From Kangiella shandongensis (GTDB taxonomy: Bacteria; Pseudomonadota; Gammaproteobacteria; Enterobacterales; Kangiellaceae), in assembly GCF_020005365.1 (NCBI RefSeq), contig NZ_JACNML010000005.1, forward strand, positions 1 to 64,000: 64,000 nucleotides of DNA, written 5' to 3'. A model generated the notes under the pieces. That model worked only from the letters and a program-made list of their open reading frames with translations, had not been told where the DNA came from and ran no database searches. The position numbers and the translations under genes are program-made. Positions within the stretch are counted from its first letter, which is position 1; every line of letters starts with the position of its first letter. Shown here piece by piece: positions 24,978 to 26,621 of this stretch.

Positions 24978-25556
24978 ATGAAAAAATTACTTTGCAGCCT
25001 GGTTGCCATGACAGGTTTAGCTTTTGCTAATACCAGTAACGCTGAACCTGTTGAATATGAATTTGATACGGTTCACAGCCAAGTCATCTTTAAAATTAAT
25101 CACTTAGGATACTCCAACTCTTTCGGAAAGTTTCGCCAGTTCCGCGGTGACTTAACTTTTGATAAAGATGATTGGTCAAACTCTTCGGCGGCAGTGGAAA
25201 TCAACGCTAAATCTATCGACTTAGAAAACAAAAAGTGGAACGCTCACATGCGTGATCCCGACTTCTTCCACGTTGAAAAACACCCGATTATGAGCTTTAA
25301 AAGTACTAAACTTGAGAAGAATGGCGATAATACTGGTGTACTGCATGGTGATTTGACGATCCTGGATCAAACTAAGCCAGTAAGTCTGGAGTTGACCCTG
25401 AACCAGGCGGGCATTCACCCAATGTCGGAAAAACCGCACGTTGGATTCTCCGCTCGCGGTACCATTAAGCGCTCGGAGTGGGGCATGGAGTACGGGGTTC
25501 CGGCAGTTGCCGACGAGGTTCATATCATTATTGAAGTTGAAGCTTCGGCTAAGTAA
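24978..25556 (+). CDS. YceI-family periplasmic lipocalin-like protein
   Basis: YceI proteins are periplasmic beta-barrels that bind isoprenoid-like lipids. The 192-residue protein has a signal peptide ending near SNA-EP, followed by YEFDTVHSQVIFKINHLGYSN, RDPDFFHVEKHPIMSF and GFSARGTIKRSEWGM, all family blocks. AATAAGGA precedes the ATG. It sits between ftsX and rpoH, where many relatives have no gene, so it is a local insertion in an otherwise classical order. Confidence 0.9.
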   Translation: MKKLLCSLVAMTGLAFANTSNAEPVEYEFDTVHSQVIFKINHLGYSNSFGKFRQFRGDLTFDKDDWSNSSAAVEINAKSIDLENKKWNAHMRDPDFFHVEKHPIMSFKSTKLEKNGDNTGVLHGDLTILDQTKPVSLELTLNQAGIHPMSEKPHVGFSARGTIKRSEWGMEYGVPAVADEVHIIIEVEASAK

Positions 25557-25567
25557 AATAAGCGACT

Positions 25568-25595
25568 GGGCCAGAATACTGTGTCGTTCTGGCCC
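25568..25595 (+). terminator. Strong stem-loop after yceI, without a T-tract
   Basis: GGGCCAGAA (25568-25576) pairs perfectly with TTCTGGCCC (25587-25595) around a 10-nt loop, 11 bp after the stop codon. The following bases are TATCACCC, so an intrinsic terminator is possible but incomplete. Confidence 0.5.
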
Positions 25596-25677
25596 TATCA
25601 CCCAACGTTACATTTTCGATCAAAAGCCCGTATTTATTGACAATTCTTTACCCACAGGCTTGAAACTTTTGTTATAT

Positions 25678-25704
25678 TTAGCACTCTTATAGACAAAGTG
25701 CTAA
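25678..25704 (+). promoter_or_regulatory. CIRCE operator 1 (HrcA site), one mismatch, upstream of rpoH
   Basis: TTAGCACTC, nine bases, then AAGTGCTAA matches the CIRCE consensus TTAGCACTC-N9-GAGTGCTAA at 17 of 18 positions. CIRCE is the operator of the heat-shock repressor HrcA, usually found upstream of groESL or dnaK. A TATATT at 25673-25678 abuts the left half and could be the -10 box it blocks. Confidence 0.85.
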
Positions 25705-25708
25705 AAAG

Positions 25709-25735
25709 TTAGCACTCTCAGTTCAAGAGTGCTAA
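25709..25735 (+). promoter_or_regulatory. CIRCE operator 2 (HrcA site), perfect match, upstream of rpoH
   Basis: TTAGCACTC, nine bases, then GAGTGCTAA matches the CIRCE consensus at all 18 positions. It begins 31 bp after the first copy, close to three helical turns, so two HrcA dimers could bind the same face of the DNA. It ends 34 bp before the rpoH start codon. Confidence 0.92.
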
Positions 25736-25769
25736 TATCGGAGCAACCATTAATTTTAGGAGGGGATGA

Positions 25770-26621
25770 ATGAGTAATATCCCAATGAACATGGCGCTAG
25801 CCGTACCCACAGGTAGTATTGACGGATATGTCAGTACCGTCAACGCGGTTCCTGTTCTCTCCGTTGAAGACGAACAGGCGTTAGCGCACCGATTCCGTGA
25901 TGAGAACGACCTCGACGCTGCTCGTCAGTTAGTAATGGCTCACTTACGCTTTGTCGTCCATATCGCAAAGAGTTACAGCGGTTATGGCCTACCGCAGGCG
26001 GACCTTATTCAGGAAGGTAACATCGGCCTGATGAAAGCCGTTAAGCGCTTTGACCCAACCATGGGCGTGCGTCTCGTTTCCTTCGCCGTTCATTGGATTA
26101 AAGCCGAAATCCACGAATATGTGCTACGTAACTGGCGTATCGTAAAAGTCGCGACGACCAAGGCTCAGCGTAAGTTATTCTTCAATTTGCGCTCGAAGAA
26201 GAAATCACTGAACTGGCTTAACAATGAAGAAGTGAAAGCCGTTGCCGATGATTTAGGCGTCAAACCGGAAGAAGTCCGTCGTATGGAAGGGCGCCTGAAT
26301 GCTCGCGATGCAGCATTTGATGCCCCAGCTCAAGATGATGATGATGGCGCAGCATACGCACCCGTGCATTATCTCCAGTCGTCTGAGGTAGATCCTGCCG
26401 CTGCCGTTGAGAACGAGCAATGGCAAGATCAGCGTGAAGAGCGTCTGATGTATGCCTTAAAAGCACTGGATGAACGAAGCCAGGATATATTGCAACAACG
26501 CTGGCTTAGTGACCAGAAGGCAACGTTACACGAACTCGCCGATAAATATGGTGTTTCAGCAGAACGTATTCGTCAGCTTGAAAAAAATGCCATGAACAAA
26601 ATTAAAAATGCTATTCATTAA
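25770..26621 (+). CDS. rpoH: RpoH, heat-shock sigma factor sigma-32
   Basis: RpoH directs RNA polymerase to heat-shock promoters. The 283-residue protein has region 2 ([38 protein letters not shown], about 59-96), the RpoH box QRKLFFNLR (133-141) that is specific to this sigma factor, and region 4 ending in [24 protein letters not shown] at 25758-25765 is a very strong ribosome binding site. Two CIRCE operators precede it, which predicts HrcA control in addition to the translational and proteolytic control usual for sigma-32. Confidence 0.96.

Follow-up and report, generated by a model that had tools for sequence, protein, structure and literature searches.

The DNA stretch analysed here, in the following called the window, comprises 64,000 nucleotides of the Kangiella shandongensis genome (GCF_020005365.1, contig NZ_JACNML010000005.1, positions 1-64,000, forward strand). 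It carries on the plus strand the gene rpoH of the heat-shock sigma factor (25770-26621), whose 283 aa product is assigned to TIGR02392 with 414.9 bits at a cut-off of 323.1. The Shine-Dalgarno sequence AGGAGGGG is located at 25758-25765 on the same strand. The genes 5' of rpoH are ftsY, ftsE, ftsX and a yceI-like gene, the YceI match of which lies below its cut-off.

The window was scanned for the CIRCE operator with the pattern TTAGCACTC-N9-GAGTGCTAA, allowing up to three mismatches, and 100 shuffled sequences served as control. Exactly two matches were identified, both on the plus strand upstream of rpoH: CIRCE1 at 25678-25704 (one mismatch, 17/18) and CIRCE2 at 25709-25735 (no mismatch, 18/18). 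These are the same two sites which a sequence-only reading of this DNA had described as a 17/18 and a perfect CIRCE spaced 31 bp apart. The chance expectation is 0.01 sites per window, and none of the 100 shuffles reached two. Both sites conform to the operator pattern of the HrcA/CIRCE regulon. The distance from start to start is 31 bp, which corresponds to about three helical turns, the linker between the sites measures 4 bp, and the rpoH start codon follows 34 bp after CIRCE2.

A CIRCE pair with a spacing of exactly 31 bp is present upstream of rpoH in all nine genomes of the genus that were examined. This would fit a cooperative binding of HrcA to the paired sites, but the two copies also look specialised for different promoters (see below). 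Elsewhere such tandem arrangements are rare: three of 118 rpoH copies sampled from the class carry sites 30-32 bp apart, and genome G039 has a pair at 33 bp.

Some further features surround the pair. The yceI-like gene (24978-25556) stands between ftsX and rpoH in each of the four genomes of the clade to which the window belongs, and it was not detected in three genomes of the other clade of the genus that were checked. On its 3' side an inverted repeat, GGGCCAGAA...TTCTGGCCC (25568-25595), is found which has no T-run and could possibly insulate rpoH from the yceI-like gene. A block TTGACA-TTCTTTACC at 25637-25652 is kept in the four genomes of the window clade and lacks a matching -10 element; it is located 5' of the sigma-E-like promoter described below. 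A short pairing of the Shine-Dalgarno region with codons 3-5 is visible, which could suit a thermosensor, but the genomes of clade B of the genus do not have those bases.

The sequence-only reading had made its proposal of HrcA control dependent on the presence of hrcA in this genome. In the 2.8 Mb assembly, which is 99.98% complete, one hrcA gene could be identified (G000:C25:45156; PF01628, 217.5 bits, cut-off 22.2), and it is followed downstream by frames which we read as grpE-, dnaK- and dnaJ-like. At up to two mismatches the whole genome contains three CIRCE sites, the two at rpoH and one upstream of groES-groEL; a fourth CIRCE-like site appears at three mismatches (C25:7945). An autoregulation of hrcA through CIRCE was rejected, since no site with up to five mismatches is found in the 8 kb around hrcA of the window genome. 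That is also true for the genus, where none of the nine genomes contains a CIRCE within 260 bp upstream of hrcA. All nine carry a sigma-32-like promoter at hrcA (CTTGTAA-N13-CCACAT or CCATAT, two to three mismatches, counted without a chance control). At groE of the window genome the CIRCE contains the -35 element (CTTGAGT) of a sigma-32-like promoter whose end reads CCCCAT. The spacer of that CIRCE (L052 2097-2123; G000:C23:138096-138122) is nearly constant among the nine genomes. These promoters at hrcA and groE suggest that sigma-32 probably raises HrcA and that HrcA lowers sigma-32 and GroE. The genome furthermore encodes an RpoE equivalog (TIGR02939, 322.3 bits, cut-off 236.15), and ten more matches in it fall below the cut-off.

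Conservation upstream of rpoH in relatives, named by the same reading as a check, extends far beyond the genus. The order is represented by 148 genomes, of which 17 encode an hrcA above the cut-off. The presence of the operator follows that gene: a CIRCE just upstream of rpoH is found in 17 of 17 hrcA-bearing genomes and in none of the 121 others with rpoH (up to two mismatches). Nine of these 121, which have no hrcA above the cut-off, contain a CIRCE of the same quality elsewhere, and in one of the 121, G147, the search for HrcA gave a weak match that stays under the cut-off. The 17 hrcA-bearing genomes come from four families and thus do not represent 17 independent events.

At the level of the class, hrcA is encoded by 268 of 369 genomes. 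One genome was picked for each hrcA-bearing family by reading the table (137 genomes), 13 genomes less than 90% complete were excluded, and the remaining 124 were searched for RpoH, which was found in 117 of them (118 copies). Within 450 bp upstream, 106 of the 118 copies have a CIRCE with up to three mismatches, which corresponds to 106 of the 117 genomes; 53 of these sites match without any mismatch, and 90 with no more than one. In the shuffled upstream regions of the class none of the 118 gave a CIRCE in any of ten rounds. CIRCE at rpoH is the usual state among the hrcA-bearing relatives examined and not an exception.

A second collection, which supplied named species, comprised the best 80 of 592 stretches; their rpoH loci were scored for CIRCE only. 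Among these best 80 of 592, CIRCE was found at 36 rpoH loci, including those of Alcanivorax, Pseudoalteromonas luteoviolacea, Methylocaldum, Dyella, Nitrosomonas communis and Pandoraea, and is absent from rpoH of the Vibrio, Pseudomonas and enterobacterial records and of Xanthomonas pisi (L217). Among 110 genomes of the phylum, all six class members with a CIRCE of at most one mismatch have one at rpoH. Outside the class 40 genomes bear a CIRCE, eight of them at rpoH, and these eight belong to one family (f213).

In 50 chosen genomes, the window genome included, CIRCE is located at 44 of 53 groES copies, one of which offered just 32 bp of upstream DNA. Operator and repressor at groESL are the same as at rpoH, in the window genome as well. 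In five genomes from two families (G044, G064, G082, G098 and G052) rpoH has a perfect CIRCE and groE has none: the seven groES copies found there are free of sites with up to four mismatches over a distance of 450 bp. G044 and G098 each contain one further site with two mismatches. Conversely, 11 of the 117 hrcA-bearing class genomes have no CIRCE at rpoH, and all 11 have one at groES. The two HrcA targets are therefore separable, and the distribution of sites suggests that the set of targets can shrink to rpoH.

The rpoH sites differ from the groE sites also in their flanks and spacers. A profile was anchored on the CIRCE start (-60 to +59, arms excluded, threshold 0.35 bits). Only the following columns of the 106 class sites exceed this line: GGAACT at -16 to -11, T+9, A+11 and A, A and T at +27 to +29. 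The 36 named sites from the best 80 of 592 show again G-16, G-15, A-14, T+9, A+11 and +27 to +29, with -13 to -11 below 0.35 bits and -10, -3 and +35 above. GGAACTT with at most one mismatch starts at -16 in 45 of 106 rpoH sites versus none of 44 groE sites (Fisher p 4e-9), A25 to T29 is found in 93 of 106 versus 6 of 44 (p 3e-18), and the extended -10 TGNTANNAT in 72 of 106 versus 4 of 44 (p 1e-11), though these p values overstate the independence of the genomes because they share ancestry.

The consensus of sigma-E promoters is GGAACTT-N16-TCTNA with GGAACTT as -35, and that of sigma-70 promoters TTGACA and TATAAT. Together with the terminal TC of the left arm, the group at -16 is predicted to read as the sigma-E-type consensus, and the group at +27 to +29 would turn the right arm into TGC-TAAnAT, a predicted extended -10. 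The left arm is predicted to supply a weak -35, which a G at the third base would improve. This base is changed from A to G in 29 of the 106 class sites (TTGG...) and the mirror base of the right arm in two of 106, which argues against a mere preference of the operator.

Counted leniently, both elements occur in 62 of the 106 class sites, the sigma-E -35 alone in nine, the -10 alone in 30 and neither in five. The strict motif, GGAACTT with at most one mismatch, N16 and TCTNA, is complete in 24 of 106 (shuffled mean 0.18). Among the best 80 of 592 named stretches it is present at 14 of 36 loci with CIRCE and at 11 of 44 without, e.g. in Kluyvera and Lelliottia, which resembles the E. coli P3 type of promoter; of the 12 class copies of rpoH lacking CIRCE one has it (shuffled means at most 0.18). 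The occurrence of the motif at loci without CIRCE indicates that the sigma-E-type promoter either predates the operator or is independent of it. Judged by these motif counts, the predicted overlap of sigma-E promoter and CIRCE is frequent and not universal; in the eight CIRCE-bearing genomes of the order outside the genus, GGAACTT at -16 is seen in just two. CIRCE at rpoH thus tends toward a fusion with promoter-like elements, which the groE sites do not have. Most groE sites have the promoter on the 5' side of the CIRCE (CTTGA at -28, TAT.A at -5 to -1), in contrast to rpoH with promoter-like elements inside; groE of the window genus differs from most in having the sigma-32-like -35 within the operator. 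In family f213 GGAACTT at -16 was seen by eye in none of the eight genomes and T+29 in one of eight, and for that reason we do not claim a composite of operator and promoter for this family. Its CIRCE at rpoH may go back either to an ancestry shared with the class or to a separate recruitment.

In the window both elements could be located on the plus strand. A predicted sigma-E-type -35, GAAACTT (25662-25668), differs from GGAACTT at one position and stands 16 bp before the predicted -10 TCTTA (25685-25689), which consists of the last two bases of the CIRCE1 left arm and the first three of the spacer. Measured against the consensus given above, GAAACTT-N16-TCTTA fits the sigma-E pattern with this single mismatch in the -35. 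The second candidate is sigma-70-like: a weak -35 TTAGCA (25709-25714, four of six bases) inside CIRCE2 lies 18 bp before TAATAT, which forms part of the predicted extended -10 TGCTAATAT (25730-25738); the latter overlaps the CIRCE2 right arm, and arm and following TAT give TGC-TAATAT. Both hexamers match at four of six positions (8/12), plus the extended TG. A generic promoter scan reported nothing at the coordinates of either promoter. Among the nine genus genomes the extended -10 is present at CIRCE2 in nine and at CIRCE1 in none, and the sigma-E-like promoter of the four window-clade genomes stands at -16 from CIRCE1. From these positions the two CIRCE copies look specialised for different promoters, i.e. 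the two promoter roles look split between them.

On the strength of these data we regard it as quite probable that both sites are HrcA operators which gate the transcription of rpoH, with an overlap of two promoters and as part of a heat-shock loop. The placement of HrcA above sigma-32, which the sequence-only reading had put forward, gains support from the hrcA gene and from the conservation in 9/9 genus and 106/117 class genomes. rpoH would be transcribed from the sigma-E-type promoter GAAACTT-N16-TCTTA, the -10 of which is contained in CIRCE1, and from the weaker sigma-70-like promoter TTAGCA-N18-TAATAT with extended TGC within CIRCE2. HrcA, maintained by GroEL, would sit on both CIRCEs and block RNA polymerase. 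Upon heat or titration of GroEL it would be lost, by analogy with other bacteria, and rpoH would be transcribed; sigma-32 would then drive groESL and hrcA-grpE-dnaKJ, the products of which would restore HrcA and shut rpoH again. The loop may thus be closed through the hrcA operon driven by sigma-32. PMC6032397 and PMC8533110 describe for other bacteria that GroE supports HrcA and that the binding of HrcA is lost on warming.

The wider proposition is held with less confidence, although we favour it: that most hrcA-bearing gamma- and beta-proteobacteria have at rpoH a bifunctional CIRCE, which provides the sigma-E -10 as well as the sigma-70 extended -10 and -35, so that HrcA would be the single gate for envelope-stress and housekeeping input to sigma-32. 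rpoH would be the sole CIRCE target in some lineages, and the genus of the window would have duplicated the element and divided its functions.

How HrcA would act on rpoH could be seen differently. HrcA may be a constant brake which, by chaperonin feedback, sets the basal level of sigma-32, while heat induction proceeds through the stabilisation of sigma-32 as in E. coli. We hold this for possible but doubtful. It agrees with the GroE titration model, with the architecture of the loop and with the turnover of sigma-32 by chaperones and protease mentioned in PMC6032397; however, the same source states in the part on H. pylori that HrcA loses DNA binding under heat stress, and the HrcA of C. jejuni is termed an intrinsic thermosensor in PMC8533110.

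Less probable, and in our view unlikely, is a repression of rpoH by HrcA in which the overlap with promoters is incidental, i.e. other promoters dominate, CIRCE acts as a downstream roadblock and the second copy is redundant. In the five genomes of clade B the sigma-E-like promoter indeed stands clear of CIRCE1, at a distance of 38-39 bp on its upstream side, the best sigma-E-like match in family f20 is also located upstream of the CIRCE, and 35 of the 106 class sites have no recognisable -35 at -16 or -17. Nevertheless it is difficult to account for a fixed register at -16 and a T+29 across about 100 families, both missing from groE, unless these elements are used.

Translational thermosensing is a known property of E. 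coli rpoH. This precedent would suit inverted repeats that act at the RNA level, as hairpins of the rpoH leader serving message stability or as thermosensor, instead of as HrcA operators; a leader taken from 25694 onward does fold CIRCE2 into an 11-bp hairpin (z -2.99; 2 of 200 shuffles equal), 37 of the 63 changes that affect one arm only in the 106 class sites keep a G-U pair in RNA, and four of six double changes are compensated. We consider it very improbable nonetheless, as single-sided changes prevail (63 versus 6 double), 30 of the 63 concern one left-arm base for which the -35 element explains the G-U form equally, CIRCE2 would be absent from any transcript of the sigma-70-like promoter, the sites follow hrcA and not rpoH, and the leader without the repeat folds unremarkably (z -1.10; 32 of 200 shuffles equal).

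It is customary to view HrcA/CIRCE and sigma-32 as two heat-shock systems that act in parallel or as alternatives, and E. coli has no hrcA. If the proposed reading is true, both belong throughout much of the gamma- and beta-proteobacteria to one hierarchy with HrcA on top, of which E. coli represents the lower half; one heat-shock switch would probably stand directly above the other in many bacteria. It would also explain the retention of hrcA in lineages without CIRCE at groE, and it would describe a circuit in which the state of the chaperonin sets the transcription of sigma-32, and sigma-32 that of hrcA. The P3 promoter of E. coli rpoH is known to be sigma-E-dependent; it is free of CIRCE, in contrast to the window, where CIRCE overlies the -10.

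The closest precedent comes from Geobacter sulfurreducens, for which Table 8 of Rodionov et al. 2004 (PMC545781) lists a CIRCE of full consensus at position -51 before rpoH, together with a predicted HrcA control of sigma-32. It differs as a single site in one of the five species tabled, and an overlap with a promoter is not discussed in the part of the paper concerned. The same part names groESL as the one target that HrcA keeps throughout the delta-proteobacteria, in line with earlier findings in other bacteria, in contrast to our five genomes with a site at rpoH and none at groES. In H. pylori HrcA sites likewise overlap core promoters, yet the targets given in that section of PMC6032397 are groE and hrcA-grpE-dnaK without a sigma factor gene. 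In Xylella under nitrogen starvation hrcA is four-fold up at 2 h and rpoH two-fold at 8 and 12 h, according to the expression data in PMC3224663, which is a neutral hint. Within the papers covered by our search, a CIRCE at rpoH was found in PMC545781 alone. The sites at gamma and beta rpoH may already have been reported in the beta/gamma survey of Permina and Gelfand 2003. In view of that survey and of the Geobacter report from 2004 we do not claim CIRCE at rpoH of these groups as new; any novelty lies in the fusion of operator and promoter, its split in the genus, the lineages with rpoH as only target, and the breadth.

Two minor observations were made in the surveyed genomes. A second, diverged rpoH, whose product is about 45% identical to the RpoH of the window, adjoins a second groES-groEL pair in L318 (G064:C19) and L319 (G098:C43), and no CIRCE with up to four mismatches is found at these two clusters. 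A CIRCE-like site with two mismatches is located near the start of what seems by eye to be the same oxidoreductase gene in two genomes of one family (L056 994-1020 and L057 1100-1126).
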